Part shown: positions 1-62,961 of the stretch, in pieces | How the letters are laid out: every line of letters begins with the position of its first letter | How positions within the stretch are numbered: position 1 is the first letter of the stretch | NCBI RefSeq assembly: GCF_949628265.1 | Contig: NC_088788.1 | Coordinates: 36,318,335-36,382,334, forward strand | Reading direction: 5' to 3' | Length of the DNA stretch: 64,000 nt | Origin: Cloeon dipterum | Lineage: Eukaryota > Arthropoda > Insecta > Ephemeroptera > Baetidae | Notes under the pieces: model-generated | What the model was told of the DNA's origin: nothing | Databases searched by the model: none | Seen by the model: the letters and a program-made list of their open reading frames with translations, nothing else | Program-made: the position numbers and the translations under genes

Positions 1-248
1 TATTCGTCCTAACGTATTACCACTAAACTCAAGCCATGTAAAGTTTTCTGTATTGCCGATAGAGTGAGCAACCCGGCACCGTCACAAAGGAAAAAAAATA
101 TACGAGTGGGACCTCTTTCCAAACGCCAGCTTTGCTCAATTTAGTCGCCAGCTGATGTCTGGTTTGGAGCAGGAGAACACTATTAAGCTTAAAAAACTTC
201 ATTTTTTGAGTTACAACTTAACTGACAGCAGTTGTAGTGAGTTCTATA

Positions 249-470
249 TTATTAAGGCTGTGAAATTTAGACGATCGACTGTTTTTTCTGAGCTTCCGAT
301 TGTTGCGGGACCATCCAATGGGCACGAATCATTCAATTTTTAGCCATTTGAACCAGACTTAAAATCATCTAAATCTGGGAAAACCGTCGAGAGCCTTTAA
401 ATACGCTAAAAACAGTCTACAACCGTCTAAATTGACTCAAAATCTGTTGATAAGTGCATGATTTTGCATC
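249..470 (+). repeat. Partial copy of a hAT-like dispersed repeat
   Basis: The stretch from the aggctgtgaaatttagacga motif onward is similar to the left end of the hAT-like element at 49096-50257, including the downstream part with cacgaatcat and repeated gtctaaa words. Only one end is recognisable, so this is a truncated or decayed copy. The short open frame at 155-343 falls inside it and is not a gene. The rest of 1-1070 is AT-rich with no coding signal that I see; it should hold the promoter of the gene starting at 1071. Confidence 0.5.
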
Positions 471-1070
471 ACCAGTAGAAATTTTCGCCAGCTTTAATTT
501 TTTTCATGCAGAGAATAAAATGATGCTTCCTTTGTCATTGGGTTGGGTGGGTCCCAATTCAGACGTCCCTTCTACCCTCCCCCAAACCACCCCTTCAAAA
601 CTTTACCCAACTTTAACGGAAAAATGTTAAACTATTTAATATTCGCTAGTATCATTAATTTTTTTTTGCAATCTTCGTCTGCACTTTGATTTTTTATTGA
701 TAGGATAATTGAAGGGTTGAGGGAATAATTTGAATAATTTTTGACTAGAGTAACCCCTCCCAGTAGAGGAAAAGATATAATTCAACAATGCAGTCTATTT
801 AAAATCGTGAGGGTTTTTTTAATTTTTTTTTCGTTCTTTTAGAACGTTGCGCTGCATTTTTTGGTCGGAAAAAATATCCACTTTACCTAATTCGACCCTC
901 AAGAATCGATTGGTGTATGCTCACGATTAGAAACTTCGTCAAAGACGGTCTTTAAATTTGTTAAATGTCCAAGTATCTCAATGTGATAAGGATTAAGCTA
1001 CAAAGAGAACGTCAGACTGTAATGATTGACATAATACATGTTCACTTATGTTTAATCAATCTTCAGTTGA

Positions 1071-4000
1071 ATGGACCTTACACTAGAAGAATTTGTGCTG
1101 AACAGCAAAGCCAGAATTCAAAATGAATCTTCCGCAAATTTTGGCTACTTCCGCACTGGACAACGAGCTGAAAAGTTTGAGTCATTTCAATAACCCAACA
1201 GAAATTATTTATCATGTTTTCCAAAATTTTAGCGTCTGCGTTTTCGTGGCTCATTATTCGTTTGCAAAATACAAAGAAAATGCTAGACTTGGAAACGAGA
1301 GAGATGTGGCAAACTTAAGAACCACGTTTGAAACTAACAGACAGTGTCGATTCCGCGAATGGCCATCTCCGCGAAAAAAGGACTTGTTGCATTTGCTGTC
1401 GGACGAGAAGAAGATGTTGCAATCTTTCAACACAAATGGTATCGCAACTTATTATCACGCCTTAAGATGATATTCTATTAAATAAATGTGCTTACAGACG
1501 CCCCTGCAGTGTTTGTAATTTTCATTCTGTCCCACGGATCGCGAGATGGCCTAATTTACACAGACCACAAGACAGAAGGAACCGACTATGACAATTTTAC
1601 TACGACTGAGGTGATTGAGGCTGTGAAGAAAAATAGTGGGCTGGAAAATAGCCTTAAACTTATATTTTTCGCGGTAAATAAAACTAGTTTAAAAACTAAT
1701 TAAATTACCCTATTAATTACTTCAGTCTCTATTCATTATGTTTGTATTTCAGCCCTGTCGCGGTGAAATAACGGACGTTATTCATTCTGAAAATCAAAGC
1801 AACGACTTCAGAAACAATCAAAACTCGTGCAGAATTATCAATTTCCCAGATCGCGAAAATTTCGTGGTGATCTATTCTACAGTAGAAAGTAAATTGTTAA
1901 CTCTTATCGATCAATTCCCTTATTAATACGTGCATGAATTTCAGCTACAAGGGCAGTGCGAGATGAAAAACAAGGCTCTATGATTGTGCAAAATGCGTGC
2001 GCCGCATTTAATAGCTTGATAAAAGACTGTCCTTTAGAGGTGGTGCTGAACAAAATCCAAAACAAAGTTCATTTAGCAATAAACTGCGCGGGGCAATCGC
2101 CGGAGGTCAAATTTGTTGCACACAAGTCATTCACCGTGAGCAAGTAGCAAAAATGTCGCGTTTTTAATTTAAAAAATTAACCAATTTCCTAGGAGTGAAA
2201 CTATGGTGGTTGCGAGGGATGAAATCAGCACCGATGCCAGGGCAAATACTTTAAAAGTAGTGAAAGAGGACCGGTCTCAGTTCTTCTCTTGGCTTTCGCA
2301 CATTCACGCAGAGCCCGTGCGATCGCGCTGGGCTGCTGTTATCAGCGACTCGAGAGACCAGAACGTGGATCGATTGGAAAACGTGTTGAAGCACACTCTC
2401 GATTTTGACACTCTAGTTCTGGACAATACAGTTTCTAATCTTGAATGGATTTACAAAAAAGGTTCCGTATTTAATTTAACCGTTCCAAATTTGAAGTGAA
2501 TTTCTAGCTTTTGGAGAACAAAGTGACGTTGGTTGCATTCTTCTGTGTTTGTTTGCGAAAATTGACGTTGATGAGAGCAATGAAATTGTTATTTCGATTG
2601 GAGGTCAGAGGGTGACTGCAGGAAAAATAGTGCACCATTTCATCGGCCCTGATAATGAAAAATGGATTGGCAGGCCGAAACTATTTTTCTTCATAAACAC
2701 AACTATTAGTTCAGACGTTTTAGCCAAGGTTAGTGCTTACATTTTATATTTGTATATCAGCTGAATACTCGTCATAATCTCAGGATGAAACACTGCAAAT
2801 GCGGGCCACAAACCACAGCGGCTGGTTTGTGGCAATTTTGCCTAACAAAGGTAATTTTAGCTGACCACTTTTTCCCCCGGAAATAATTTTTAACTTAAAT
2901 CTATAGACTGCATTGAGGTCCTATTGGAAATTTTACAAAACAAGGAACTGAAAAATGGATCCAGTTTGCAAGAGTTAGCGATGAAGCTACTTTCAGACGA
3001 CTCGTCAGCACAAAAGAAACTACCAAAATCTCAAATCGCATCGACGCTTTCGCATTTGCTCGACTTTCCGGACTGGCCAATGCGCTACATACAGCCAAAA
3101 TTGAACGTAACAGTCAGGAATGTTCCAACAAACGGATCAGATGTTGGGAAACCGAACTTTTGGGAAGATTTTGTACCTGAGTTTACAAGTGCTCACAGAC
3201 GTACGTTGGGCATTAAATCGGTGGAAGTTGTCAAAAAAGAAATCAATTTCGAAGATCTCAAAGCCGATTTAAATGGTAATAGCGACTCGTATAGCGTTTA
3301 CGTTGTGGCATCGCCTCCAGGAAGCGGAAAGTCAACTTTGGTTCGTGAGCTTGCTTATTGGGCCAACAAAAGCGCCATCAATCGCAGTGTAGCCAAAATC
3401 AATCTTCTGGACCAAATCGAGTATTTTGAAGAGAATGAAGACGACGTTGACTTGCTTTCCTTTCTCAAGTTCGCCCTTGAGTCAACTTGGATCAAAAATA
3501 TTTCGCCTCACGTATTGAAGGAGAAGCAAATTGTGATTTTCCTGGACGGTTTTGACGAAATCTGCCCATTCTACAGACGCGAGGGTTTGAGCCTCATCAA
3601 GGAAATAGCCAAATCTAAAATTCCGCTCTTGATTACAACAAGACCGCAGGAAGAGGTAAATTTATTTTCTGCCCTGGAACACGTCTCCACGACCAAAGTT
3701 GAAATAAAGCCACTTGAGAGAAACGAGCAAGTGGCACTGCTCAAAATGCTACTACGCAAAAGTGAGGATGAATGTACGAAGATCCTAGATGATTTCGAAA
3801 CTCACGGCGTCCAAGATATTCTGAAAAATCCATTTCACCTTTCACTGATAGCAGAAAACATCGTCCCATCGAATATCAATCTTTTTGCTGTGTATGGACA
3901 AGTTGTAGAGAAGAAAGTACGGCAAGCAATGGTGCAAAAAGAGTCGTATGACGAAAAAAGTAAAATTTTCAACGCAAAGGTAAAGCGCCGAATGAAGTTG

Positions 4001-7000
4001 CTGCAAAATGTTGCAGTGGATTTCTTGAAATCGCTTAAAATCCGCAAAATGAGCGAAGACGAGGTCAATGAAGTCAACAATACGGGATTGCTCACTATAC
4101 TTCCCAACAAAAATGTGCGTTTTGTGCACCAAACCTTTGCTGAATTCTTAGCGGCACAGCATTACGCGGCAGAAATTGAAACTGGCAAATTGGAGGAAAG
4201 TTCCTTCTTCAGCCACGAATCGTTTAAGCAAAGCAGGGCGTTTATCGACCTCCGACTGGGAGTTGCAGACGCTGCTTTGAACGAAGGGTTAACAGCTTTT
4301 TTAAGGAGACATTTAAATGCACCCTTACTTTCAACGATTGTGTCTGAAAATTTGGAGAAAATGTTCAAGATTGTGTGCCCTTTCTTCACGTTTTCTCCAA
4401 ATGAAAAGGAGAAGATTTTGATTGAAGATGGATTCGCTGCTCTTCAAGCAGCGTGCAAAACCAATGAAGAGATTGGCCTGGTGTTGTTAGAGATGTGTTC
4501 TTCAATCGAAAGTGAAAGCAAATTTTCCACGCTTATCGAAGATATTGCCAAAAACAATTTTCTTCGTCTCTGTAAAGCACTGCGAGAAAAATGCGCGGAG
4601 AGCTGGACTTCTCAAGAATCTAGGAAAATTATTGCGGCGAATTTGGCATCCGAGAATGGCCACACGGAGATGCTCAAAATGTTGGTTGAAATTGGAATGA
4701 GCGTCAATCTAAAAGACAGGTGCGCATCTTTTTTTGTTGCGAATGAAAAATATAAAAATTATGTGAACTTTGCAGATCCTATCGCAATGCCTTGCACTAC
4801 GCGTGCGAAGAAGGACACGTGCAATGCGTCCATCTGCTCGTGGAAAACGGAGCCCGCTTAGAGGAGAGAGACGCCGATGGCAACACTGCCCTCTTGTTAG
4901 CTGTGAAATCCAGCCATGCAAGTGAAAGCATTGTGCAGTTTTTGTTAGAGAAGGGAGCTGATCCGACCTCTGCGAATAATAAGAAAGAAACAGCCCTTCA
5001 TTTGGCTACAAAGAAAGGGAATGTCGCAATAATAAATTTGTTACTGAAAAAAGCGCCTGCGATCGTTGATGTGAAAAATGAAAGAGACCAAACAGCGTTG
5101 CTCCTCGCGTCAAATGTTGGAATTTCCCGCATTCTGATAGAAAACGGCGCAAACGTCCAGTCTTGTGATTACGAATTGCACAACCCTCTTCACACAGCGT
5201 CAAAGTCAGGAAATAATGAAGTTGTTCGGTATTTACTTGGATTGGGACGCTTAAATGTTGATGCACACAACATCAATGGAAGCAGCGCTCTTCATTTGGC
5301 TGCCAAAAACGGACATTTAAAGGTGAGATAATTTTTATTACCTGTGCTCAGCACATACCGTGAGGGGAGTGGGTAACGTGAGGCCCGAGTGGCCGCAGAG
5401 GAGCTTGGGCTCATTGTGGCCATCTTTTCGCCTCCTTGCACCGAGGTCTTTCATTGGAACGCCAGACATATGTCCCTAATGCTAAAGGGGCGAAATCCAG
5501 CGCCTCCTACCCGCACGTTGAGCTATTTGAGAATTTCATCGTGTCACTTTATTAACCACTTCGTGCCATCTCTGACACTGGGCAGCCAGTATTAGATCCT
5601 TGAGAACTACTCAAATATCTCCCATGCTTTGAGAATTACGGAAATAATTTTTGTTAAGTGCAGTTCATCCAGAAAGCATGAAATTCGACTTTTGGCAATG
5701 TTGATAGTTGACTTGTAATTGGGTAATCTTCATAATTGCAGATTTGTGAAATGCTGCTTGAAAGTGGTGCAGAAATCGCGTTTAAGGATGCAAACTATTG
5801 GAACGCCTTGCACTGGGCCGCGGTGCACAGTAATCTGCAAACGATTCGCTTTTTCTACCAAAGAGACGCGGCTCTGGCTAGGCAGAAAACGCGTCAGAGC
5901 GCTTCCGTTCTACATCTCGCGGCAGTTAACAGACATCCCGAAGTGCTGCGATTTTTCCTGGAAAGTGGCGAGAGCTTTTTATCAGACCTTAACGAACAAA
6001 CAGTGGAAGGGTTGACGGTCTTGATGTACGCCACCGCTCGAGGCCACGTGCCTGTGGTTCAGTTTCTGTGCAGAAACGGCGCCGATGTCTGTCTTAAAGA
6101 CGAGAACGGCTCAACAGCTTTGCACTGGGCCGTCAAGATGGGAAACCCAGATGCTGCCCGGTTTTTGCTGAGCGTAGAGCCAAAACTCGTGCTGGACACA
6201 AAATTTCACGGGGAAAACGTCTACCAATGCCTGAGGTCGGACGCCAATTTCGCCGAAGAGTGGAAGTTCTTGTTCGATGCGAGCTTGGACAATATCATCA
6301 CTTCAGTGGACAAGGCCGGCTGGAGTGTCCTGCACGAGACAGCCAGCGCTGGATCGATTTCAAACCTCGAGTTTTTACTTCAACTTGGCTGCTTCTCCGT
6401 GGACGACAGGACAACAGACGAAAGAACACCTCTGCACCTCGCCGCTTCGAGAGAAGACGCTCAAGCCTGCAAACTGCTCCTCCAGAACGGTGCAGACGCA
6501 ACATTAGTCAACAATGAAGGAAGCAACGCCCTCCACTTTGCCTGCGAAGGCGGCAATCTGGATGTGCTGGAACTCTTGCTGAGCCTTGGCACCATCGACC
6601 TGAACGCGAAAAACAAAGATGGAAACACAGTTCTGCATCTTGCCGCAGAGAAAAGTAATTTGCAGGTAAATAGTATACAAATTTCTCAAGTATTTTTTCC
6701 CAAGGCATGCGCACGCGAGCAATAGATTTGTTTTCGTGTGCGCATCCGCATACTAGGCCCTTTGTTTAAGCAGAATGGGCCAATCAGTGGCGTCCGGAAA
6801 TTTGTCCCTTTAGCCGGCTGGGGTAGCGAGAAAAGCGGAGAATGAGCGCTGTTCGACTGTGTCGCCTACTGCTCTTAGCCAATGAGATGGCGGGATCGAG
6901 TCACGTGATTGCTCGAACTGCTTCTCGCTGGGTATGAGCACATGTCTCTACTGTCGCCTGCATAAGCTGTAGCTCTTTTCCCCGACAAAAAGGGGCACTT

Positions 7001-7798
7001 TACGAATGCGAATTTCTCGGTTGTTTTAGTTCCCGCGGTCATGGTTTCGACTTATGTTGTAGATCAACTCGTGCGCTTTCGTTTGACACCAATTGAGACA
7101 CGGATGGCTGCATTAATTTTGACACAGAGCCGCTAACGAAAACTCATTTAACATGGGGAAAGATAGGGAAAGTGGATCTGCGCAGGGCGAACGCACGCCG
7201 GCCCGCTGATTTGCGCGACTCTCAATTTCAATTAGTTTCCAATGCGTCAAAGAACTTACAAAATTTAATGTTTAAGCAAATGATTTCAAGCAAAATATAT
7301 ATTAATTTACAGATTACCCAGTATTTGCTTGGGTCTGGACAAGTTTCTGTTGACGAACGCGACAAGCGTGGATCAACAGCTTTCCATCTCGCAGCCAAAT
7401 TCGCGAGGGTAGAAATGTGCAAACTGCTTTTGACTGGCGGCGCTGATCTCTACACGGAGAGTGACAACGAAGTAAATGCGTTGATGATGGCGTGCAACGG
7501 AAAAAATTGGGAGGTGCTCGATTTTCTACTGCAGAGAGGAAATTTTGATCTGGAAAAGAGTAGCTTTGATGGACGAACCGCGCTGCACTTTGCTGCGGCA
7601 TCTGGAGACCTGAGATGTACGCAAATTCTGCTCGCAGCCGGAGCAGATATTAACGCCAAGGATTTATGGAATCGCACACCAATCCAGTTGGCCGAGTTTT
7701 ATGATAGCACCAAAGTGGTCAATTTTTTAGCAGAGAATGGCGCCCTTATTGAAAATGAAGAATCAGAATCAGAGGGCGAAACAGATGAGACTGCATAA
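1071..7798 (+). CDS. Caspase - pseudocaspase - NACHT - ankyrin repeat protein (NLR-like)
   Basis: Proposed exons: 1071-1174, 1233-1438, 1498-1673, 1753-1888, 1945-2143, 2193-2461, 2508-2728, 2784-2850, 2907-4719, 4776-5322, 5742-6665, 7313-7798. They sum to 5148 nt, 1715 codons plus stop, and every junction keeps frame at GT-AG. Residues ~35-270 are caspase-like (peptidase C14): His116 in LSHG, Cys164 in PCRGE after KLIFFA, and a p10-like GSMIVQNAC. Residues ~290-510 repeat the fold (GRPKLFFF) but have LFAK and INTT at the catalytic positions. NACHT ATPase: Walker A PPGSGKST (~598-603), Walker B FLDGFDE (~671-677), sensor ITTRP (~704). About 20 ankyrin repeats (~1040-1705) follow, then an acidic tail. 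By family knowledge STAND ATPases oligomerise on ligand binding, so this is inferred to be an intracellular sensor that activates its own protease by proximity. No signal peptide. The first exon is the weakest part; ATG 1123 without the first intron is the alternative. Confidence 0.82.
6716..7230. other. GC-rich, CCAAT-bearing island inside the last intron of the NACHT gene
   Basis: The 647-bp intron 6666-7312 contains a block much richer in GC and CpG than the surrounding introns. It has two CCAAT-type boxes (ggccaatcag near 6778, agccaatgag near 6878) and a cacgtg E-box-like word near 6902. No reading frame is convincing. It may be an internal promoter, an unannotated noncoding RNA gene or inserted DNA; the sequence does not decide. 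Confidence 0.3.
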
Positions 7799-8962
7799 AT
7801 TAGTTTCTTCTTAAAACATTAAATTTCATATATTTTAAAAAATAAGCCACTTCGTCAATTATTTCAATCTACATCTTGATACCAAGAAAAAGGAAATTAT
7901 TTTCATCATTGGAATGGAATTAGTGGGCAACAAATTAATTCGAGCAATACTAATAATTGTACTAGAAATATTGCATTTAATTTTGCAACAAATTTTTTCG
8001 CAACTGCTTCCTGTGCAATTAAATTTTAAATAAAACTATTTAATTTCAAAATTATTACAAAAAATATTAATTATGTACTTTTTATTTCAGCTTATTTTTC
8101 AAAAAATTTGCAGGATTTGTTCCAAGAAGTGAAGTGTATTGCAGCAATGATTTAAAGCAGATTAATTACATGCAATCACGTAATTCACCTATATAGCAGC
8201 ACACAAAAATATATTGGGGCTTTGATAGTAACGCGCATTTACCTAAATTTAGATTTCTCCGGATTTCTCACTAATTTACTGATTTCGGTACGGCATGCAA
8301 CCCGCACAATACGCAGAAGTGGAAAATGCGCGAGAATTGACAGTAGCGCGTGCCTCCTGTTGACCGTTCAAAATACTATTATTTTCAAACAAATGAACGC
8401 TGTCCCATTCCTCATGCCAAGCTGGCCCGGCCCCGCATTAATAAAATCTAGCGCATTTTCTGGATGAGACTCGTCCTTATGATTGAATTGATAATAAATA
8501 AAAAAAAAATAAGCAAAACGGGGAAGCACAATTTGACGTTGTTGACCTCAGCGTACTACATAAACCGCATAAACCTGTCTTTTTGCTACACTGTACGGAC
8601 TTGCGCGCTGCTGATGCTGAACCCCGAAATTTTTCTGCTACAGAAATGATTCCGGGAATACGTATGCATGCTGAGAAGAACCTCCTTAATTTACTTACAT
8701 TGATGGGCTGAAATTTCGGGAGTGTCTCGCCTTCGTTTCATCGTAAATCACAAAAATGCTGAAGGAAACAGTGCACACTGGGAAGTTTAAAATTTTCGCG
8801 GGAAGCAGCATGGCCGACAGCGGCCGCATTTAGTTGTGATGCCGGTCGTTTGTCGCTGCAGTGCTGCAGGAGGACCACATTGCCAAAGGTGCACACGCGG
8901 ATAGAATCAAAAGAAAACCGCGTTTAAAACGGGATTTTCTCGACCTGCGGCTTGTCTAAACG
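7799..8962. other. Intergenic: 3' UTR of the NACHT gene and 5' region of eRF3
   Basis: AT-rich sequence follows the NACHT-gene stop, with an attaaa signal-like word near 7819 that could serve polyadenylation. From about 8780 the sequence becomes more GC-rich (gcggccgc near 8820, GC-rich exon-like text to 8962), consistent with the eRF3 promoter and 5' UTR. No protein gene is seen between. Confidence 0.5.
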
Positions 8963-11900
8963 ATGAGCAGCGGCACTGAGCAAAACGCAACGACTTCCGA
9001 GGCTGTGCCTACGCCCGAGAGCTGGGAGAAGGCCGATTCCACAGGCGCTACGATCGCCGCCACGACACAGCCCCTAGACGAACAATCTATCAGATACAGT
9101 CTTAACGTGAATGCGGCAGAATTTGTTCCCTCCTGGATGCCTTCCTCCGCTCCCGCAGATACCTCCGCAGGCACCCCGGACAGCCCTGCGAAAACACCGA
9201 GTGGTGAGTGCCCGAATGGCCCACTTTCGGCCGCCGGACCGCGGTCCATATGGCCGCGAGTGTGTCCGTGTTGCGGCCACACCTCCCGCTTTTGCCCAAT
9301 TCCTCGCTCACCCCGGCCGGCCGACTTACTCTAATGCAATTTGCTGACTCGACAACAATTTTAAATTTGATTCGTGCCCGTCCGGCACTCAAATTAGCCC
9401 AAGCCGACGTGCAATTTCCGCTTTCACGACTCGCGATTCGTCGCGTGTTTTTCCCAGACAAAAGCAGCCCTGACGGAGTCGCGCTCGCCCTAGGAATGGA
9501 GGAGCCACCTGGATCAGCATCCCCTAAGAAACAACCCCCTGACGGTTCGTCCAAGGCTTCCACCCCCGAAGAAGGACAATCCATTACCGCGGCCATGTCG
9601 GCTCTGCAGGTTAACGAGGTTTGACTCATCCCCCGGACATGTGACCGGCTTTGATTAACTTTTGCTCTCGATCCGAGTAGCCGGCCGCGGTAGACAGTTG
9701 GGAAGAAGCCGCCGATGGAGACGAATTGGCGGACGAGGACGTCGAGGAGGAGGAAGAGGAGCTTGTTGTCAAGCCCAAGAAGAGAGCGGCAAAGGCCGAG
9801 GAAACCAGAAGCAAAAAGGAGCACATCAACGTCGTATTTATTGGCCACGTTGGTATGTGTTTCATTACGAAATCCTGTTTTTCTTTAAGTTAACGCGTAA
9901 ATAAAAAAAAAACAGATGCCGGCAAGAGCACGATTGGTGGACAAATCATGTACCTGACTGGCATGGTTGAAAAGAGGACTCTTGAGAAGTATGAGAGGGA
10001 GGCCAAGGAAAAGAACAGAGAAACATGGTACCTCTCGTGGGCGCTCGACACAAATCTTGAAGGTCAGTGCTGTGACAAACCTTTCATTCCAGGATAGCAC
10101 TGTATCAGGAAATTGCTTATTAAGAATTAATTGAAACCGATGTTAAGATAGAAGTCGTGTTTACGTGTCAGATTTCAAGAGAAAACTATTGGATCAAAAA
10201 TAAAAATTCTCTTGACGGCCGCAGGGTTGCATTTTGCTTACCCTCTGGGATTTTTTCACCACTTATTTTTTTACCAATTTCTTGCACAAGAATTGATTTT
10301 TTCTGTGTTTTAATTCAAGGCCATGAGCTAATAATTATTAAAAAATTATTGAAAACAGGTGCAAAAATTGGTTGCAAGATACTGGTAAAAAATATTAATA
10401 AACCGGTTTTAACCTCTGCATTTTTTTAATGCGAGTGTTGTGCAACCATGTGACAAAGACACTTTTAGACCAGAGTCAATGTTTCAATTTTTGACCTAAT
10501 TAAATAAGCTTTTCCTGACGTATTAGTTTTTTTATGCAAATTTTCAAGGGTCTAACAAATTCTGGTTCACGTTTGTATTTTTTTAAACCCTTTGTTTCAT
10601 TTGAAAGCCTGAAGTCCCTGTACCCCCTGCCCCAAATAAAAAATTTTTAAACCAAGTTTTCCGCTGCAGTCCAGTTTTGAGGCTTAAATTATACGGTGAC
10701 ATTTCAGAGCGCGAGAAAGGCAAGACCGTGGAAGTGGGACGCGCCTTCTTCGAAACTGAGGGCAAACATTTCACCATCCTCGATGCACCTGGACACAAGA
10801 GTTTTGTTCCGAACATGATTGGTGGCGCTGCGCAAGCCGACCTTGCCGTCCTCGTAATTTCCGCGAGAAAGGGAGAGTTCGAAACCGGATTCGACCGAGG
10901 CGGACAAACAAGAGAGCACGCGATGCTGGCCAAAACTGCAGGAGTGCGGCACCTGGTTGTCCTTATCAATAAAATGGACGATCCCACCGTGGAGTGGTCG
11001 GAAGAGAGGTAATCGTCAACGCATTACCTTGATTACCAGGAAGTTTACACTCTTCTCTTTGCAGATATAATGAATGTAGAGACAAGTTAATGCCCTACCT
11101 TAAGAAACTTGGTTTTAACCCTCAGAAGGACCTCACATTCATGCCTTGCTCTGGACTCACTGGTCTGGGCCTTAAAGAGAAAATAGATGAAAATCTGTGT
11201 CCGTGGTACAGGTGAGTGTCAAGCTGAATTTTGACTAGCAGGCACACAATTTGAATATAATTAAAGAGGTTTTTACTGCAGAAACACTTAAATTGTAATA
11301 AATTATTTTTAAATTGAAGAAGTTCAAGATGGAGATGTTTCTTATATTTGAATTTTTTGTTTTGTTACTTTGCTTAAATTGGCTTAGGCGAAATTATTCG
11401 TAAAAAGCCAGCAATTTTGGAACACTGGCATAACTAACAATGCTTTCATCTGCAGAGGGGAAGCCTTCATTCCATACATCGACCAGCTGCCGTCATTAGG
11501 TCGAACTAACGAGGGGCCTTTTATGATGCCAGTAGTGGACAAATACAAGGACATGGGTACTGTAGTAATGGGAAAGGTGGAGTCTGGAGAAGCCAGAAAA
11601 GGTCAAAGTCTTCTTCTAATGCCTAATAGGGTGAGTCGACTTAATCTTCGCCACCGTACTTGTACTTAAACGCTGTCAAATAAATTGCAGACGCCAGTGA
11701 TAGTGGACCAGTTGTGGTCTGATGACGAAGAAGTTACTTCTGTGAGCTCAGGAGAGAACGTCAAGATCAAACTGAAAGGAATTGAAGAAGAGGATGTGTC
11801 CCCAGGATTTGTGCTCTGTGATGCCAACAATCCGACTAAAACTGGCCGCATTTTTGATGCTCAAGTACGCTATCCTCTTAAATACATGATTTTAACATTC

Positions 11901-29080: not shown

Positions 29081-32000
29081 ATGAGAATTTTGGTGCTTTT
29101 ATCGATAGTATTAGTGCTAATAATTGTGAAGCATCAGGTGAGCCTTTTAAATCTATTGCAAATAATTTATGGATTAAATGTTATCGATATATATGTCGTG
29201 ATGTTGTCTGTTAATATGCCAATTTAAAAAATATTTAGTTCGTTCTTTGCGGCGAAAAAGATTCTCAATTAAGGAAACGTATATTTTTATTTTGAAGAAA
29301 AAGGTTTTAGTAAACAAAATATAAAAACGTTTAGGAAACCTGAAGCACTCGAGACGACCATATATAATCAAGTGTTGTGGAGGTTCAAAATGCTCGGCAT
29401 CTTTCATGCGTAAACCAAAACAACGTTCGAGTGATTTCAAAACGAACACCACCCAGCACCTTAAAACATCCAGCACTAAGTATGAATTACGTGTGAATAA
29501 GCAGCACGAAGCAAACTATTTCATTATTTATATTTTAGAGGAAATTTTCAAACACCTGTAAATAAAAATGACAGCAGGGATTATGAAAATAAGGCCATCC
29601 CTGAGTCTGATCCAACTCCCTCTGAACCAAACCAAAATCCCATTGTCACAGGAACATTTTCCTCTCCTCAAGGCATCACGTCACCTGAGCTAACCAAATC
29701 GGAATTGACAACCACCACGATTTCGCAAAGTGACACTATGCAGGTCACTTCCACCACCATCACAACAGCTAAACCAATAAATGTAGGCACAAATCTATTA
29801 GTAGACATGTTTCTTAAATAATAATTGTTTTTAGGAAGCCTGCGAACAGTCTCGGTGCGCAACCTTCACTTTCATGGCAAACCAGGTTTCAATTAATCCT
29901 TTTTAAGAATATAAAAACGAGATCAACTCTTAAATTTTTATTTTTATTTAATTTCGAATGAGTGTTTAATTGAAATAGCACTCCACAATAATTCACGCTA
30001 TATATCGACACAATTAACACGTTGGCATTAAATTTATTCAGGGTGCATCATCAGTGATCAGCGCAAGCACAAGTAAGAGATAATTATGCCGTTGAAGAGA
30101 TGCCTAAACTTTTGCTTTTGAATTCAGGCAATCTGATTATTAGAAACGGAATGACGTTTCTGTTTTCGTCAGCAGCAGCGACCCAAATTGACGCGGCCAA
30201 GAACTGCTTTTCGCGCAATTTGAATTTAATTTCTGTGCAGAACGCCTTGAAAATGAACCTTGTTCAAAAATTGCTTCAGGGTGTGTTTTTTTTATTTATT
30301 TTTCATTTCCATTTCCATTTTATTTTTTAATGATTTAAAGATGTTGGCACTAACTCTTCCGTCTGGACGATTGGCTCGAACGACGGCAACATATCGTGCC
30401 AAAATTACAATTTGAGTTTCGCCTGGTGCAACCCGAAAAGAGAAATCGTCCTTCCAGCGATCATGCAGAAAATAAACAGTTTGGAAATTGTTCAAAAAGG
30501 ACTCACGATGTCCATGCTTAACGGTGCTGCCGTCTTGAAAACGTCAGATTCTAATTCACTATTTCCTTTTTTGTGCGAGGTAAACACTCGATTAATTGCT
30601 AAAAATCTAATTAATATTTTGATATTTAGCCAAAAGATGATTTTCAAGACTCTTGCCTCGCTCTTAATTGCAACAAAGACGTATGTTTCGTAGTAATTAT
30701 GACGTGTATCCATTAATTTCTTTTCGAATTTATAGAGCAAATTATTTGACGCAAACGGGAATATTAAGGGTAAAGCGTGAATCCTAGATAAAATCTTATT
30801 TTAACTGGAAAATAAAGTAAAAAATTAAATGTACAAATCATGATTATATATTTTACAATGGCTACTCCAATAAATATGCAATTAATATTATGGATCTAAA
30901 CCGAATTACTTTTTACTTTTGGCAGCTATTGTAAAATAAATTAAGGCACAATACTTTTTTAGCTAATTTTATTCCCCAAAACTATTTATACATATATATT
31001 CAGATGGAGAAAAGTATGGCAAATGGACACGTACCTGCAACAAATTGTACCTTTTCTCTGGCAAGCTTGTTAGTGTTAAAAATTTGATTATTTATGCAGA
31101 AATAATAAAAAATTCCTTATAAATCCTTAAAGGGCACTTGGCAGCAGAACTGGGACTTTTGTTGCAATTTAGGAATGCACCCGATTTGGTTTAGCTCGGC
31201 GTCAGACTTTAAGTGTTTGAGCAACTCGACTAAAGCGAACTGGACGCTAAACTATAATTATTGGACGGCGGGACGCGCAATGGGCACCTGGGGAAGGTGG
31301 GCCTGGTGCCCAGGGGCCGTCAACCTTCCCGACTCGCTTTCCTGGGCTCCGGGGCAACCGGACAGTAATCAGACCAACGAGAACTGCCTGCACTTGCAAG
31401 TGACGAAAAATTCGAGCGGTGTACTTTTGTCAGACCGGAACTGCAGCCACAAATACGTCATGGCTTGCCAGGTGAGATGAATGTTTTCTGTATTTGAATT
31501 TGTTGAGAGCTTGGATGTTTTAAGGGCGACGCGTTGATGGCGTCAAACTGCAATAAGCCAAATTGTCCGAAGGAATGTTTAAAAAATGCAAGTTGTATTT
31601 TTTCTTTTAAGGGCTAATTTTTTAACAATATTTTTCAAACGTCATAGGAATCATTTTTCGAAAATGGCACATTAAAGGGTTAGTGATTTAGGCCTAAAAT
31701 TAGTTAAAATTGTTTGATTTTCTTTTTCAGATCTGTTTGTACACGGCCAGTGGAATGCCGGTTGTGGCAAGGATTATCTGTTTTCGGCTGCTACTGTGAA
31801 TTTTAATTTTAAAATTTATATTTTCTGTTTTAAAAATTATAACGATTAGTTGGATTGGTTGGGCGCGTGGAATTATTGTTGCTCCATTGGAATGAAACTG
31901 GCCTCGATTGAGGCTCTTGAGGAATTGAGTTGTCTTACGAATATGGTTGCGAAATATCCCAGAGCAGGTAGAATAATGATATTTCCAATTTAGATAAAAT

Positions 32001-34447
32001 TGGCTCTCTTATAAACTCTTATCAGTGTACCCTGATCAATGTGGAAGGGATTTCTGGACATCTGGCACAAACCGCGGATGTCCAGGTGCTCACTTCTGGT
32101 GTTCAGACGACGAAAAATTGAACAAGGAGGAAATAGCCAACTGGAAAAACGGGAAAATGCCCTCGGAGAGTGCTGATCAGTGCATTTTCATTAATTTGTC
32201 AAATTCGACTTTGAGTGTGACTTATTTGGGCGCTGACTCTTGTTCCAAGCAAAAACCGTTTCTTTGTGAAGTGATATTTTACATTTTTTTTTTAATTTCA
32301 CATTTTAATGTTTGTCGTTTTTGTGTCTTTCAGGCTTTGCAACTGGGAAATAAATCGTTGCAAATTGCGCGCTCTTGCTCGGAAATTTGGAATGTGACAG
32401 ACGATGAAGTGAATGATATAATTATGAATCCGAGCGGCGACGTCGTTAACCAAAGACGCAATCTCAAAGTGCGGCTACGCAAATTAATTTGATTTATTTT
32501 AAAGATCGTGTATATTTTTGCTTCGCAGTGTTATCTAAGGTGCTGCGGAAAAAAAGGACACGTTGTAAATATATTTCTTGAGTTCCCTTTTTATTATTCA
32601 TTTTATTGGACACCATCGGTGTACAACTACAGTCAAATACAATTTTATTTATTATAACGGATTGCTTATTGAGATAATGTTAAAGGTTTTTTGACATAGT
32701 CTTGTAAAAAAATTATACATACTAGTAAGCAAAGAATCGCAATAAATACATTTACAATTAGCGGTGACATCGAGATGAAAACATTTATGTGAACAGACGA
32801 GGAAATGATAGCCATGAAAGAATATCTAGTTAAAATTGCCCAATCTTTAAAATTTGTATTTGTTCAATCCAATTAACACATAGCAGGGGTTTCAAAAAAG
32901 TTTGGGTCAATATATTGTTGTTTAACATTCATATTGTTTAAAAACTTCTTATAGGCAGTTGTAGAGGGAAGAGCGTATTTGGATTTAAGGTCATTAACAA
33001 AATATTCAGTCTGAACCAATTCATACACAAATCTGGACTTCATTCTCTTGTCTACACTAAGGTCTTTTTTAAAGAATCTAGACTTAGCACATTCCAACTT
33101 AATTGTTAAGATTATTCAGAGATCAATGAGACCAAATTGCTTTTATACCATAGGAAGCTACAGGAGAAATTGCCAGGTTAAATAGCTTTTTAGCAATGCT
33201 AAATAGACGATTTTGAAAGGTTTTTAATTATATATATTCCAAAAATTGAAGCTTTAACTCTCTTATCCAGATGATTTGAAAAGCAAGTTCCAGTCGTTTG
33301 AAATGTCACTCCAAGATAGTTGACAGAAGAGGAAAATTGTAGGCAATTTGTTAGCTCCCATTGTTTCTCGATTTTGCTATATCTGCCAACACCCTTATAT
33401 TTAAATTTAATGATTTGACATTTTTTCCAATTTAGAGACAGTGACATAGTAGCTAAATAAATCTTGATATTATTAATGAGATCATTTAAAATTGATAGCT
33501 TTTCACTTGAAATAACAATAGCATCTGCGTAAAGAATGCATTTAACACCTGGATAATTCAGTAATAGATTATTGAAATCACAATTAATATAAATAAATAG
33601 AAACGGTGACATGCAACCGCCTTGTATAACTCCATTACTTTGCACAATTTTTCAGTTCACTTTTAAAAATCAAATTAAATCTTAACATGCGAATAGTTAA
33701 AAAGCGGGTCACTGGTGACGGATGAAATTTTGCGCAACGTAGAGGACTTGACGGCCGACGACCCGCAAGCAATGCAGGATGGCTTTCAAAACTTTGATTC
33801 CTGTACTTCCATTCGTAAGCTTATTATGTGTGTAAATACAATTGCAAATCATTTTTTTGCAGAGTCCACTGATGAGTGCCACCTGATGGCCCAGATGTTC
33901 CAGTGTGCAAAGAAAAATGCACCTGACCTGACTTAAGGACTCGTCACTGCCATCAAAGGAGACGCCACTGTGACTTTTTGAATTCTATTCATACAGAATA
34001 ATAGCTTTTACTTTGCATTCGCCAGGTTTCAGTTACTGCTACAGGGGGAATTAAAACCGCCGGGAGAGTATGTCCTCTGTATCCAGCAGCAAGTTGTGTA
34101 CCAAATGTAATGATACCAAATTTAGACTAATTTACAGTAAGATTTAATAATGTTGTTCTTTTAGCAAACGTATATTGATGAACAAACGGGATCATGTAAT
34201 CAATTTTTCTTTCATCAGATGCTTAATTTTAAGTTTGAATAATGTAATAATGGAAAATTTATGTTTTTATCATAATTAAATATACATATTTTAGTTGTAC
34301 ATTATATTAAAAGGTTGATTCCACGTCTTTTTAATAATCTCAATGGGTCCATATACATATATTTTCTTTACATTAGAACGTTGTTTATGTACATATATTA
34401 TTATTATTATTATTTTATATTATAATATTTAATTATATTTATTAAAT

Positions 34448-36164: not shown

Positions 36165-37858
36165 GTGGCACATCTCCGCGGGCGCCGTGGAAAATCTACT
36201 GAAGACCCTCGACAACAAGAGTGCGACCGGACCTGATGGCATCCCAGCGGTCCTGCTGAAGAACTGCGCCGTCGCCCTGTGCCCCAGCCTTTCTCACATT
36301 TTCCAGCTTTCAATCTCAGTGAGCGACCTGCCGATGGACTGGAAAAATGCAGCAGTCACCCCAGTACCAAAAGATGGCGAGAAAACAAATTTCAAAAATT
36401 ATCGGCCTATTAGCGTCACCTCACTTGTTGGAAAATTGCTGGAAAAACATGTGCGCAACCAGCTGGCTGCATATCTGGAGCAAAAAGCGGCTCTCCCTGA
36501 CGGCCATCACGGTTTTCGCCGATCGTGCACCACGATGCTGCTGCGGGCGCTCGACTCCTGGACGGCGGCCCTAGATAGCCAGAGCGGCACCCGAATCCAC
36601 GCCGTGACCCTTGACTGGAGCAAGGCATTCGACAAAGTGCCGCACCGCCGCCTGTTGAATAAACTCCAGTTTCACGGCGTGGACGGCGCCGCTCTCAAGT
36701 GGCTAAAAAATTTCCTCGTCGGCCGCAGCCAATTCGTGCGCTTCAACGGGGCGCTGAGCGAACCGTGCGAAGTGACGAGCGGCGTCATTCAAGGTTCATG
36801 TCTTGGCCCGCTCCTGTTCAACCTTTTTGTCGCCGACCTCCCTGCAGCTGTGAATACGAACTTAGTCCAATACGCAGACGACTGTATGGTCTACAACAGC
36901 ATCAATTCTGACGACTACATTGACGCCCTACAGGATGACCTCGCCCGAATAGACATTTGGTGTTTGAATAACGGCATGCAGCTGAACGCAAAAAAGTGTG
37001 TGGTCATGGATGTCACCCGAGCGCGCTTGCCCTGCAACCCGCGTTACATCATTGGTGGCGTGTCGCTTCAGTACGTGGCCACGCAGCGGTTTCTTGGCGT
37101 GCACCTCTCGAGGGACCTCCGCTGGAACTACCACGTTGATGTCCAGCGGAAGAAAGCGGTGCAGACCCTTGGCTTTGCTGCCCGCCACCTGCGAGGATGC
37201 ACGCTGAGAGTAAAAAGAATCGCATACCTCCCCCTCGTCAAGCCGAAATTATTCTACGGGATTCTTGCGTGGCACCCTTCGACTAAAACAAACACGGAGA
37301 AGATGATAAAAGTGCAGAACAGGGCACTGCACTTTATTCACGGCCGCCGCATCCCGCCTCCACTCCAACAGAATCTCCTCTCAGTGCCGGCTCAGCTCGT
37401 GTACACCGATCTCCTGTTTTTCAAAAAGTGCCTAGCAGGAGTGACGGACTACGACGCGATGGCACGAATCACACTAGGGCGCGTGCACCGCGGCGACGAC
37501 CCGCTGCATCCTCGGCTGCAGCAGCCGCCAGCCCGCACCGACCTTGGCAAAAATGTGTTTGAATTTCGTGTCGTGAAAGAGTGGAATGGTATGCCACCCG
37601 CATTAAAGGACTGCTCGGCGGCACAGTTTCCTTCTACCTGCAAGGCGTATGTGATATCAAGATTTTAAAGTGTGATTTTTGTCGTGACTTGTTTTATGAT
37701 TTTCACTAGTCTGGGCCCACTTCGGCTTTGTCCTCCAGGGCAAGGTCTTAGTCACTTGTTTTCCTGAAGTGTCGCCCTTTCTCACATGATTTCCAATTGT
37801 AATTGACTGTGATACATTAATGTATTTATGACATAGTGTGAGAATAAACATCCAATAA
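36165..37858 (+). mobile_element. 5'-truncated LINE with open reverse transcriptase (CR1/L2/Jockey-like)
   Basis: An open frame from ~36166 to 37668 (about 500 aa) starts inside the RT domain: KSATGPDGIPAVLLK, NYRPISVTSLVGKLLE, ALDSWSKAFD-type palm sequence, GVIQGSCLGPLLFN, QYADDCMVY with intact catalytic YADD, then RFLGVHLSRDLRW. The C-terminal domain common to CR1/L2/Jockey groups ends in WNGMPPALKDC. The endonuclease domain and ORF1 are missing, so it cannot move by itself. A ~190-bp 3' UTR ends near aataaacatccaataataaa. The frame is unbroken and rich in GC relative to its surroundings, which suggests a fairly recent insertion in the palindrome spacer. Confidence 0.85.
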
Positions 37859-58080: not shown

Positions 58081-58586
58081 TTTGGGGTGTCGTGAAGCCA
58101 AATTAAACACTCGTCTCTTGTTGAATTGGAGATTTATTCACTCCGCACTTGAACTGGAAAATTACAATAAAATCAGTCTTAGGAATCACAATAATAAATT
58201 AAATACAAGTTATTTGACTGTCGGAATTTACAAATGAGCTCAAGAATTAATTATACATTTTGAATTATTATTATTACATACTGAATTTAATTTGGCGCCG
58301 AATTACATAAATCTAATATCGCGAATTAATAGCATTTTATGACTGAAAACGGTATTTAATTGACTTTGATTTGATCACTGAATGTTTGATTTAACACTAT
58401 ATTAAGTCTTTGATTAACTTACCCCTTGGGAGGGTTCAAATTATTGAGAAAACTGTCGGAGACGAGTATCACACGCTTGGTGGAATAGTTTCTCACGTCG
58501 AATGCACACGGCACGAATTGTCTTAATTTTTCACTGCACTAGCGGCTGCAGCTGGACGGTGGCGCCACGCTGTGGTAGCCCCTACA
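58081..58586 (-). repeat. 3' LTR
   Basis: 506 bp, 505 of 506 identical to 62981-63486. On the minus strand it begins TGTAGGGGCT and ends ACACCCCAAA. The last ~20 codons of pol and its stop codon (58523) lie inside it. Confidence 0.95.
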
Positions 58587-61500
58587 GGAGTCCCCTCCGA
58601 CAAACTGGAAGTTTGGTAGGACACAAATCTGGCAGGGAAGCGCACTTGACGACCTGATCTTGTCGTTCGGACCGGCTGCTGTGGCGCCTGGTCGGTCGAC
58701 CGGCTCGTCGGTGCGGTTGCTGTCGGCTGCTGCTCGACTAGTGCTGGTTGTGGGTCAGGTTGGTCTGCTGGTTGCTCAGGTGGCATCTCAGGTTGTTCAG
58801 GTTGCTCAGGTGGCATCTCAGGTTGCTCAGGTGGCATCTCAGGTTGATCATCTGGCTCGGCTGCTGGCTCGGCGAGAGGTCGTCGTGGGGCCAAACGGAT
58901 GAGTCGAGGTGCTGCTGGAGCTGGCTCGGGAAGCTGGGCAGCGAGGACGAATGCCGGCTTGAGCCTGTCAATTGACACCGACTTCTGCTTGCCATTCACC
59001 TCCAAAATGAACGTCTTAGGGCCTCTCTCCAATACTTTGTGTGGTCCAGAGTAGGGCTGGGTGAGTGCAGGTCGCGCCGCGTCTACTCGAAGGAAACAAT
59101 GCGTGCAATTGGCCAACTCCGGGTGAACAAAACAGGAAGGAACACCGTGGTGGGACGCTGGCATGGGGCAAATTTTCTTGGTGTGGGCCTGCAACTTGGA
59201 AAGCAATTCTGAAGGTGAAAGTTCATTTTTGGGGGGAACAAAAAATTCGCCTGGCAGCCGAATAGCTTCACCGAAGACGAACTGGGCTGGGGATCCGCCT
59301 AGGTCTTCTTTCAACACTGAGCGCAGTCCAAGTAGAACTGGTGTTAAGGCCATGGACCAGGGAGTCTTGTGACAAGTCAGGGCTGCCTTCAGGGTCCTGT
59401 GGAACCTTTCCACCATTCCATTCGCTTGGGGGTGATAACTGTTAGTGTAGTGGACGTCAATTCCTGCGAGCTCTGCGAACTGCTGGAATTTTTGGGAAGT
59501 AAACTGCCGGCCTTGATCGCACACCACCGTCTTCGGCACTCCGAAACGACTGATCCAAGAGTCTTTAAACGCGCGAATGACGTCTTCGGCGGTGATGGAC
59601 TTCAGAGGGGTGACTTCAGGCCAGCGAGTTAGACGATCCACCATGGTCAGGCAATATTTAAAGTCTTCAGACGGCGGAAGGGGGCCAATGAGGTCGATGT
59701 GCACCACGGAAAAACGTTCTGTCGTGGGCGGAAACTGATGCAATGGCGCCTTGGTATGGCGCGTGACCTTTGCTTTCTGGCAAGAGAGACAAGAGCGGGC
59801 CCATTGGCGGCACTCTTTCTGCATGCTAGGCCACACAAACCGGTCTGAAACGAGTCTGACTGTGGATTTAATACCTGGATGAGCGAGGTCGTGAAGGGAG
59901 TCGAACGCTTGTCGTCGCAGCTGCTCAGGCACAAATGGGCGAGCTTGGTGAGTCGTGACGTCGCACCAAATGGTCAGGTCAGGTGAACCTTCCACAGGGT
60001 AGAGGCGCAGGGTGAGAGGGCTGGTTGGCTCCTTGTACTTCTCGAGTTCTGCGTCGTCCAGCTGGGCACGAGCGATGGCTGCAAAGGTGAAGGGCTGCGC
60101 TGTCACCTCTTCGATGCGCGACAAAGCGTCCGCCACGACGTTGGCGCTGCCAGGAACGTATTGGATGTCAGTGGAGAATTCGCTCACAAATTGAATGTGC
60201 CTCTCCTGGCGAGGATGGCGGTCTGTCTTGTTGGCTGTGAACATCTCCACGAGCGGCTTCTGGTCCGTAAAGATGGAAAAATTTCTTCCTTCGACCAAAT
60301 ATTTAAATTTCTTGATGGCGCAGACGATGGCAAGCAACTCGCGGTCGTACGTTGAGTACTTCCGCTCAGCAGGGCTCAGTTTGCGGCTGAAGAAAGAGAG
60401 TGGCTGCCAGATGTCGTCAACCAACTGCTGCACCACGCCACCGATAGCTACGCCACTAGCGTCGGTGACGAGGGCAAGTGGTGCGTCAAGTTTGGGATGC
60501 GCCAGACAGACTGCGTTGGCCATAGCTTGCTTCACTTCCTGGAAGGACTTGTCGGCCTCTTTGCACCATTGGATGGGGGTTTTCTTTGGCTTGCGTGGAC
60601 CAGCGAGGAAGACATGGAGAGCAGCAAGGTGGGCAGCGATGCTGGGCAAAAAGCGATGATAAAAGTTCACCATTCCGAGGAATCTCGACAGATCTTCTCG
60701 CGTTTTAGGGACGGGGTAATCTGCAATGGCTTGAATGCGGTCAGGCAATGGCCGCAAACCAAGTGCAGACACCTCGTAGCCAAGGAAATGGACGGTGGGC
60801 GCGCCAAGGATGCACTTTTCAGCGTTAACCACCAGACCATGTTTGGATAACTGTTCCAACACTTGCTGCAAATGAGTCTTGTGCGTTTCTTCGTCCGGGG
60901 ACGCGACCAGCACGTCGTCAACGAACACGAAGGCAAAAGGCATGTTCTGAAGCACTTGATCCATGAACCGCTGAAACGTGGCACCGGCGTTCTTCAACCC
61001 AAACGGCATCATCGGGAAAAGGAACAGACCGAATGGTGTCGTCACCGCGGTTTTATGGACGTCTTTTGGGTCCACTGGAATTTGCATATAAGCCTTCGAC
61101 AGATCAATGATGGAGAAGACACGACATCCAAAAAGGGAGGCGCTGCAGTCATGAAGATGACGCATAGGGTATTTATCTGGGACGGTGCGAGCATTGAGCT
61201 TGCGGTAGTCCCCGACTGGCCGCAGAGTACCGTCCTTCTTGGCAACCATATGAAGGGGGGAAGCCCAGGAACTCTGGCCTCGCACCGCAATACCATGATC
61301 TTCCATCTCTTGGAAAAGTTTCTTGGCTGCGGCGAGTTTGTCGGGCGCCAATCGGCGAAATCGGTCATTTTCAGGAGGTCCGTCCGTAGTCGTAATTGTA
61401 TGCACAGTATCGTGTTTCACAGCAATTCGGTGTGTAGTAGATTTAAACAGCTCAGGGTACTGTTGCAGCAAGAGGAAAAATTTATTTGTTGAATCCACCA

Positions 61501-61900
61501 CTTTCACAACAGGCAATTCACGGTCACTAATAACTCCAGGAGTTTTTAGTCCGGTCACCTTGTCTTCGAGCACCATATCGTCTAAATGCACTGCTAACTT
61601 GTGATGGGCAAGAAAGTCTGCTCCAAGAATGGCGCTGGTCACATCCGCAACAACAAACACCCACTCAAAGTCACGGCGCAGGCCAAGGGAAAGGGTGAGA
61701 GTGTGATAACCATAGGTACGGATGGGCTCGTCGTTGGCAGCAGCGAGCTTGAAGCTAGACTCAGTCACAAACTGGGGAAGCAGGCTGCGTGGCAGAACAC
61801 TCAGGTCGGCGCCCGTATCAACCAATAGCTTGTAGCTGGTGGCTGGGTCAACAATGAACAAACGGCGAGGCTTGGTTGGTTTGGGGGGCTGGGCAATCGC
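58523..61900 (-). CDS. pol: Pol polyprotein (protease, RT, RNase H, integrase)
   Basis: Open from the end of gag (minus-strand frame -1 to gag, no ATG needed) to the stop at 58523; about 1112 aa from 61861. Aspartic protease LLVDTGADLS (residues ~12-21). RT has YMQIPVDPKD, FPMMPFGLKNAGATFQRF and FVFVDDVLVAS, with the catalytic VDD. RNase H starts ALVTDASG. Integrase has the HHCC zinc motif (H-x4-H ... CLSC), then the D,D,E core (HIDLIGP, VCDQGRQFTS, NGMVERFHR). The tail is Pro/Glu/Gln-rich with tandem units and ends in the 3' LTR. No stop or frameshift interrupts it. Expression presumably uses a -1 shift near the gag stop; I see no perfect slippery heptamer. Confidence 0.93.
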   Translation of the reverse strand, partial: AIAQPPKPTKPRRLFIVDPATSYKLLVDTGADLSVLPRSLLPQFVTESSFKLAAANDEPIRTYGYHTLTLSLGLRRDFEWVFVVADVTSAILGADFLAHHKLAVHLDDMVLEDKVTGLKTPGVISDRELPVVKVVDSTNKFFLLLQQYPELFKSTTHRIAVKHDTVHTITTTDGPPENDRFRRLAPDKLAAAKKLFQEMEDHGIAVRGQSSWASPLHMVAKKDGTLRPVGDYRKLNARTVPDKYPMRHLHDCSASLFGCRVFSIIDLSKAYMQIPVDPKDVHKTAVTTPFGLFLFPMMPFGLKNAGATFQRFMDQVLQNMPFAFVFVDDVLVASPDEETHKTHLQQVLEQLSKHGLVVNAEKCILGAPTVHFLGYEVSALGLRPLPDRIQAIADYPVPKTREDLSRFLGMVNFYHRFLPSIAAHLAALHVFLAGPRKPKKTPIQWCKEADKSFQEVKQAMANAVCLAHPKLDAPLALVTDASGVAIGGVVQQLVDDIWQPLSFFSRKLSPAERKYSTYDRELLAIVCAIKKFKYLVEGRNFSIFTDQKPLVEMFTANKTDRHPRQERHIQFVSEFSTDIQYVPGSANVVADALSRIEEVTAQPFTFAAIARAQLDDAELEKYKEPTSPLTLRLYPVEGSPDLTIWCDVTTHQARPFVPEQLRRQAFDSLHDLAHPGIKSTVRLVSDRFVWPSMQKECRQWARSCLSCQKAKVTRHTKAPLHQFPPTTERFSVVHIDLIGPLPPSEDFKYCLTMVDRLTRWPEVTPLKSITAEDVIRAFKDSWISRFGVPKTVVCDQGRQFTSQKFQQFAELAGIDVHYTNSYHPQANGMVERFHRTLKAALTCHKTPWSMALTPVLLGLRSVLKEDLGGSPAQFVFGEAIRLPGEFFVPPKNELSPSELLSKLQAHTKKICPMPASHHGVPSCFVHPELANCTHCFLRVDAARPALTQPYSGPHKVLERGPKTFILEVNGKQKSVSIDRLKPAFVLAAQLPEPAPAAPRLIRLAPRRPLAEPAAEPDDQPEMPPEQPEMPPEQPEQPEMPPEQPADQPDPQPALVEQQPTATAPTSRSTDQAPQQPVRTTRSGRQVRFPARFVSYQTSSLSEGTPVGATTAWRHRPAAAASAVKN
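58587..58600 (-). promoter_or_regulatory. Polypurine tract
   Basis: Minus-strand GGAGGGGACTCC lies immediately before the 3' LTR, the expected place for plus-strand priming. Only the first eight bases are all purine, so the exact limits are uncertain. It lies within the pol reading frame. Confidence 0.5.
58780..58862 (-). repeat. Short tandem repeat in the pol C-terminus
   Basis: Units of about 21 bp (ggtggcatctcaggttgctca on the plus strand) encode repeated QPEMPPE in the minus-strand frame, with one shorter unit. Repeats keep the frame open. Confidence 0.85.
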
Positions 61901-61902
61901 CT

Positions 61903-62955: not shown

Positions 62956-62961
62956 GTTGAG

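Follow-up and report, generated by a model that had tools for sequence, protein, structure and literature searches.

In the apoptosome that CED-4, Dark or Apaf-1 forms with CED-3 or Dronc, proximity on a STAND oligomer is what activates the caspase. The heterodimer of caspase-8 and c-FLIP(L) has been reported to be energetically favoured and active (PMC7586951). NACHT-ankyrin genes of early animals have been mentioned (PMC12909245), and NLRs have been reported to be apparently missing from arthropods (PMC4986451). Here we describe a gene of the mayfly Cloeon dipterum, LOC135938275, that brings these elements together. It lies in a stretch of 64,000 nucleotides (RefSeq assembly GCF_949628265.1, contig NC_088788.1, positions 36,318,335 to 36,382,334, forward strand; hereafter the window), and its product is one chain composed of a caspase with its catalytic dyad, a pseudocaspase, a NACHT with a winged helix, and an arm of ankyrin repeats. 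This four-part architecture is what the sequence shows.

In the open-licence literature searched, neither the caspase-pseudocaspase-NACHT-ankyrin design nor a mayfly NACHT expansion was found, and phrases such as “caspase-NACHT” led to no paper. The four-part architecture is not described in the available parts of six papers, PMC2575513, PMC8195603, PMC12909245, PMC8260672, PMC4986451, and PMC7586951, and whatever is attributed to these papers here refers to those parts.

Results

The source assembly has 190 Mb in 10 contigs, 5 of them long, and the window lies on the contig designated C3. The gene occupies positions 1071..7798 of the plus strand, the strand of all gene features given below. 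Splice-joining of the window sequence across 11 introns, all gt...ag and with consistent phases, gave a frame of 1,715 codons without interruption, and the 1,715-amino-acid product matched LOC135938275 isoform X1 (P0001) letter for letter. That record had already been deposited, labelled as an uncharacterized protein, and its annotated gene model spans all 12 exons of 1071..7798. Exon 1 (1071..1174) contains the start codon and a short N-terminal leader (residues 1-34). Two other gene models were rejected: a start codon at 1123 was ruled out by the annotated protein, the correct form being the 1071 start with an additional intron at 1175-1232, and a donor gtgagc at 2136 was ruled out since it brings a stop into frame. 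The protein used for the Pfam searches had the provisional first exon from 1123; the corrected protein (1071-1174 joined to 1233-1438) has the same families in its precomputed domains.

An initial annotation of the window had proposed, from the sequence, one spliced frame with a caspase retaining its His and Cys, a NACHT with both Walker motifs, and about 20 ankyrin repeats. These elements were all recovered: the twelve exons rebuild the public protein exactly, and the caspase call held in Pfam, as did the NACHT and ankyrin calls, with the details that follow.

The catalytic caspase (domain 1, residues 35-273), recognized by Pfam and a PDB profile, spans 1233..2143 in exons 2-5 (1233-1438, 1498-1673, 1753-1888, and 1945-2143). 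Its Peptidase_C14 match was highly significant (E = 1.3e-18, 68.0 bits, cut-off 21.4), the domain matched caspase-3 at 5.5e-9, and a 14-row family profile reached caspase-3 at 1.9e-16 in the PDB search. The domain has the caspase fold of family C14A and its catalytic dyad, with His 116 in LSHG (codon 1533..1535) and Cys 164 in APCRGE (codon 1756..1758); the pentapeptide QACxG is absent, APCRG standing in place of QACRG.

Among 69 caspase domains in 66 family proteins, the catalytic His was kept in 66 (3 gaps) and the Cys in 65 (3 gaps, 1 Ser), and the equivalent of R64 was kept in 61 (6 gaps, 2 Lys); R64 and R207 are given in caspase-3 numbering, and their equivalents were placed through a computed alignment. 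The QACxG Gln position held Gly or Ala in 65 domains and Gln in 1, the pentapeptide being mostly GPCRG in the family, and the S1 pocket may differ. The R207 equivalent is Arg in the window protein, and the family has Arg in 46 domains and Thr in 18. The replaced pentapeptide and the Thr at the R207 position would fit a caspase part that serves as a scaffold, its working activity lost or its specificity shifted. We regard this as unlikely, given the near-invariant dyad and the retained R64 equivalent, and the dyad is kept although the listed relatives (the protein's own record apart) are only 28-51% identical to the window protein. Because the dyad is kept across the family, domain 1 is probably active as a protease, with an altered S1 pocket. 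Drosophila Dronc has the site PFCRG and is active, so that a replacement of this Gln can be tolerated. Asp170 (Cys+6) was present in 40 of 48 aligned rows; no processing site is claimed, because caspase-3 also carries an Asp at the same place.

Between the caspase and the NACHT lies domain 2 (about residues 275-530), which spans 2193..3118 and comprises exons 6-8 (2193-2461, 2508-2728, and 2784-2850) and the first part of exon 9. When a 14-row family profile of domain 2 was compared with all PDB sequences, only caspases and c-FLIP were found among the 60 of 62 matches listed, with an ancestral effector caspase as the best match (2.8e-7), caspase-8 at 4.8e-5, and c-FLIP weakly at 0.35. Taken singly, domain 2 of 2 of 14 members matched Peptidase_C14 (best 9.6e-6), and the hhalign match of domain 2 to a fish caspase-8-like protein covered the GKPKLFF strand (E 0.00013, probability 53.8). 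In the family alignment, the consensus of the SHG-equivalent segment has no His, and the residues after GKPKxFF are mostly N or D, then Q, instead of QAC. Only 2 of 48 rows have a His anywhere in the SHG-equivalent stretch, and 2 have a Cys shortly after PKxF; the window copy has neither residue at the aligned catalytic places. Domain 2 therefore combines caspase homology with lack of the dyad, and because of the caspase-only profile matches and the missing His and Cys, we assign it, on sequence grounds, as a pseudocaspase. The tandem DEDs of a c-FLIP(L)-type pseudocaspase are lacking, with no DED at E ≤ 1 in the window protein by Pfam.

It is highly improbable that domain 2 is instead an unrelated spacer. 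This would agree with the absence of a Pfam caspase match in the window protein and in 12 of the 14 members tested, and with the failure of hhalign to find similarity between domains 1 and 2 (E = 0.26 and E = 0.35); it is opposed by the PDB matches, by the two members that match Peptidase_C14, by the alignment to the fish protein, and by two predicted models, in which domain 2 has a caspase-like order of strands and helices. Structure comparison of the models (VIA-align) listed rows for domain 1 only, and the Foldseek rows gave no residue ranges. Because profile comparison detects no similarity between the two domains, the pseudocaspase is, as judged by sequence, not a recent duplicate of domain 1. 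No single open frame containing all of domain 2 was found among the fetched family loci.

Exon 9 (2907..4719, 1,813 nt) carries the end of the pseudocaspase, the NACHT, a winged-helix region, and the first ankyrin repeat in one open frame. The NACHT ATPase core (residues 593-740, 3305..3748) matched Pfam NACHT at E = 1.5e-7 (31.9 bits, cut-off 26.7) and has an intact Walker A (SPPGSGKS, 3311..3334) and Walker B (FLDGFDE, 3539..3559), as expected of an animal NLR. The C-terminal leucine-rich repeats (LRRs) of animal NLRs are absent, with no LRR family at E ≤ 1 in Pfam, and ankyrins cover this part of the protein: Ank_2 and other Pfam Ank families mark the region 4622..7798 (the end of exon 9, 4776-5322, 5742-6665, and 7313-7798), with Ank_2 covering 12 stretches and about 20 repeats counted by eye, followed by an acidic tail and the stop. 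Unselected counts over the 66 family members gave 61 with a Walker A-like pattern and 52 with a strict Walker B pattern. The first Asp of Walker B occurred in 48 of 48 rows of a selected alignment; since LSHG and a Walker A pattern at a fixed distance were the criteria for picking these rows, their 48/48 His and Walker A Lys are circular.

No CARD, DED, Death, or Pyrin domain was detected at E ≤ 1 in the window protein by Pfam, nor among the domains precomputed for P0001. A genome-wide search for CARD at E ≤ 0.1 found a single match, and a search for gasdermin found none; both searches took intron-split genes one exon at a time, and divergent domains may escape them. Because of this single CARD match and the lack of gasdermin matches, the sequence does not support an adaptor-dependent or a gasdermin- or pyroptosis-type pathway. 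The proposal of the initial annotation that such a design could bypass a death-fold adaptor agrees with these results.

Because the end of domain 2 and the NACHT share the 1,813-nt exon 9 with the first ankyrin, the fusion of these parts is independent of splicing. At 19 of 28 other loci, representing 17 places (L004/L024 and L008/L026 overlap), the domain 2 end pattern and both Walker motifs likewise stood in one open frame. The catalytic caspase is joined to the remainder through intron 5 (2144..2192, 49 nt), and this join depends on splicing. The donor of intron 5, AA/GTAG, holds an in-frame TAG, and if the intron were retained, the protein would stop after domain 1. Domain 1 and the pseudocaspase were found in one open frame at 0 of 20 loci, the caspase frame met a stop ahead of domain 2 at 19 of 19 loci, and AATAAA or ATTAAA occurred between the two domains at 14 of 19. 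With these stops, these AATAAA or ATTAAA motifs, and the TAG in the intron 5 donor, a caspase-only transcript or isoform is possible as judged from sequence.

The same features, together with annotated members, P0065 and P0066 among them, that have no NACHT match in Pfam, would be expected if the gene had two main products, namely a lone caspase that stops at the intron 5 TAG and, apart from it, a protein of pseudocaspase, NACHT, and ankyrins; the fusion would then be a minor isoform or an artefact of annotation. We consider this quite improbable. Genomic distance across the join had a median of 188 nt (range 147-608; 19 loci at 17 places, the window included), whereas the coding sequence across it in 42 proteins has a median length of 135 nt; the two differ by about one 50-nt intron, which leaves little room for a gene boundary and scant intergenic space. 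The intron phases match exactly, and both domains occur in 65 of the 66 members deposited for the two genera, though these were retrieved with a joined query.

At E ≤ 0.001, the genome contained 101 NACHT matches. In the 6.5 kb to the 5' side of each, on its own strand, a domain 1 match was found for at least 87 and a domain 2 match for at least 82, both being present for at least 79 and at least one for at least 90; these counts are lower bounds, since the census drew on the best 150 of 237 and the best 150 of 213 caspase-type matches. Pfam caspase matches lay 5' of a NACHT in 31 of 66 cases, against a random mean of 0.135 and a maximum of 3 in 1,000 trials. Eleven of the 101 NACHT matches had no caspase-type domain 5' among the matches listed (e.g., C1:9155645, C5:24463252, and C3:8385734), and they may be NACHT genes outside the family, or family members with caspase matches beyond those listed. 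The NACHT matches sit mostly near the ends of two contigs: C2 has 34, with 30 within 0.8-4.7 Mb, and C4 has 46, with 45 within 29.3-36.04 of its 36.40 Mb. The window gene lies outside these clusters.

Domain 1 was present in 65 of the 66 family proteins (69 domains) and domain 2 in all 66, and many of the members had already been deposited as uncharacterized proteins. Of the alignments made, A2 and A4 comprise 14 of 22 rows each and A3 comprises 8 of 12, with some row ends trimmed and the last A3 row shortened. In a tree of 48 of the 66 members, the window gene paired with Neocloeon P0002 as its ortholog (51% identity, support 100/100), and each genus had its own separate expansions.

Three word-based protein searches did not find the four-part architecture outside Cloeon and Neocloeon. 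These searches require shared 5-residue words and scored 7,381, 6,742, and 7,991 candidates (the last set being the best word-sharers), so that absence from other arthropods or mayflies is unproven. Two of the searches listed 61 and 20 proteins, all from the two genera, and the third listed 24, of which four came from elsewhere (E 1.5e-11 to 3.3e-5): two unnamed caspase-like proteins, a fish caspase-8-like protein, and a prawn NACHT protein.

Several members and relatives differ in composition. P0065 (528 amino acids) and P0066 (465 amino acids) consist of a caspase and a pseudocaspase, with the NACHT Pfam match absent, and may be truncated genes or diffusible partners. A Cloeon paralog subgroup (P0029, P0039, P0040, P0043, P0045, and P0053) has an extra N-terminal region of about residues 1-200 ahead of the caspase (YFAYCLDxKTK...), which in P0043 gave no Pfam match. 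The prawn protein, P0069 of Macrobrachium nipponense, is a weak relative (3.5e-6) with Pfam NACHT and PF18738, a HEPN-type domain; a NACHT protein thus occurs in a crustacean as well.

In 59 of 69 pairs, the C-terminal remainder, mostly ankyrins, had a lower identity than any of the three upstream parts (means 0.61 versus 0.74, 0.75, and 0.71). The pairs were chosen for >50% identity in all upstream parts, with two ortholog pairs admitted beforehand, which biases the C-terminal value downward; they are non-independent, the gene models may contain errors, and the support from this comparison is weak. Large genus-specific expansions, clustering at contig ends, and a less conserved C-terminal arm are, as a general expectation, typical of conflict genes, and they argue against the protein being an ordinary regulator of apoptosis or development rather than an immune sensor. 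The window copy itself, with its single Neocloeon partner and its position outside the clusters, would suit such a regulator, a role that we nevertheless hold to be improbable.

Elsewhere in the window, the next downstream gene begins with a first exon at 8960-9334 (+) that carries a PAM2 motif (4.7e-5) and resembles the N terminus of eRF3/GSPT1 by eye. A weak C-type lectin match, under the cut-off (E 0.003), was found at 31998-32492 (+). A 500-codon frame at 36166-37668 (+) matched RVT_1 at 4.4e-33 and is probably another retroelement, and frames of a Gag-pol type long terminal repeat retroelement lie at 58500-63000 (-), with open frames of 1,150 and 356 codons and reverse transcriptase, RNase H, and integrase-like parts recognized by eye. 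Rfam and tRNA searches gave no match in the window, and no tandem repeats were found within positions 1-9000.

Discussion

We propose, with moderate confidence, that the gene encodes a single-chain NLR-like sensor-protease of the NACHT-type STAND class, in which oligomerisation of the NACHT would activate a caspase and pseudocaspase paired in cis, with no adaptor. At rest, the NACHT would be ADP-bound, and the caspase would be a zymogen that the pseudocaspase either pairs with in cis or restrains. When the ankyrin arm senses a ligand or some disturbance, the NACHT would open, oligomerise, and bring caspase units together. The pseudocaspase might then be the partner that activates the caspase allosterically in a dimer, a part played by c-FLIP(L) towards caspase-8. 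The activated protease would cut downstream targets, most likely other caspases, and the output could be death of the infected cell or an immune signal, again with no adaptor. Activation by NACHT oligomerisation of a caspase paired in cis is suggested because of the analogy to NLRs and to caspase-8 and c-FLIP(L).

In the initial annotation, a single caspase was pictured as hung directly on the NACHT of what could be an undescribed, inflammasome-like insect system. The fusion is supported; the linear picture is not, as it overlooked the pseudocaspase between the two, which alters the likely mechanism. Nor is the gene a one-off, since at least 90 of the 101 NACHT matches have caspase-type domains 5' and many members had been deposited as uncharacterized proteins.

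A number of results weigh against the proposed mechanism. To those already given for the replaced pentapeptide and the R207 position, for the missing Pfam match of domain 2 and its lack of similarity to domain 1, and for the stops and AATAAA or ATTAAA motifs at the caspase join may be added that the strict Walker B pattern is confined to 52 of 66 members, that the genome gave no gasdermin match, and that the placement of domains in the predicted models, which are of chains shorter than the window protein, is judged from the predicted template-modelling score (pTM) only. What has been observed is the architecture, from which we infer proteolysis, ligand, substrate, oligomerisation, and immune induction.

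If this mechanism applied to the family as a whole, baetid mayflies would possess some ninety or more one-piece inflammasomes, each chain with a sensor, a NACHT switch, a caspase, and a pseudocaspase in cis. Oligomerisation alone would lead to proteolysis, the pseudocaspase would serve as a c-FLIP(L)-like co-activator or as a lock, and the whole would constitute an independently evolved insect NLR-type system. We give this broader view about an even chance. About 100 NACHT matches in a mayfly genome, most with a caspase and a pseudocaspase 5', contrast with the description of arthropods as apparently NLR-free. The family offers an adaptor-free test case for STAND switching of caspases and for pseudocaspase action in cis, and a test case for intracellular danger sensing in insects beyond the standard models.

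Comparison with known systems

The CED-4/Dark/Apaf-1 systems differ from the mayfly protein in being two CARD-joined proteins, with no NACHT and ankyrins in the caspase chain. Animal NLRs (NLRC4, NLRP3, and NOD2), which gave the best Foldseek rows, share with it a NACHT with a winged helix, a C-terminal repeat arm, and an N-terminal effector; the mayfly protein differs in having ankyrins rather than LRRs and, at its N terminus, a protease and a pseudocaspase rather than a CARD, Pyrin, or Death adaptor domain. Among NLRs of the sponge Dysidea avara (NLRX group), CASc is named among the domains of NACHT-LRR proteins in the legend of Figure 2 of PMC12909245. Because of this entry, an animal precedent for combining a caspase with a NACHT may exist. 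The sponge proteins, whose caspase case is known from the legend only, have LRRs rather than ankyrins, come from a non-arthropod, and have no pseudocaspase named in the part of the paper available.

Amphioxus hybrids (LRR-caspase, TNFR-caspase, and DED-NACHT) resemble the mayfly protein as fusions of a receptor with a caspase or of a death fold with a NACHT, which have been proposed as short cuts (PMC2575513); a caspase-NACHT fusion and a pseudocaspase are not named in the available part of that paper, and the caspases of these hybrids keep QACxG. Bacterial caspase systems with AP-ATPase STAND genes also tie caspase effectors to STAND switches, mostly as separate genes in a shared operon or neighbourhood and in a different lineage (PMC8195603). 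The pairing of an active caspase with an inactive pseudocaspase is shared with caspase-8 and c-FLIP(L) (PMC7586951); the mayfly pair differs in having no DEDs and a domain 2 that is no detectable duplicate of domain 1, and in being placed in cis, before the NACHT of one and the same chain.

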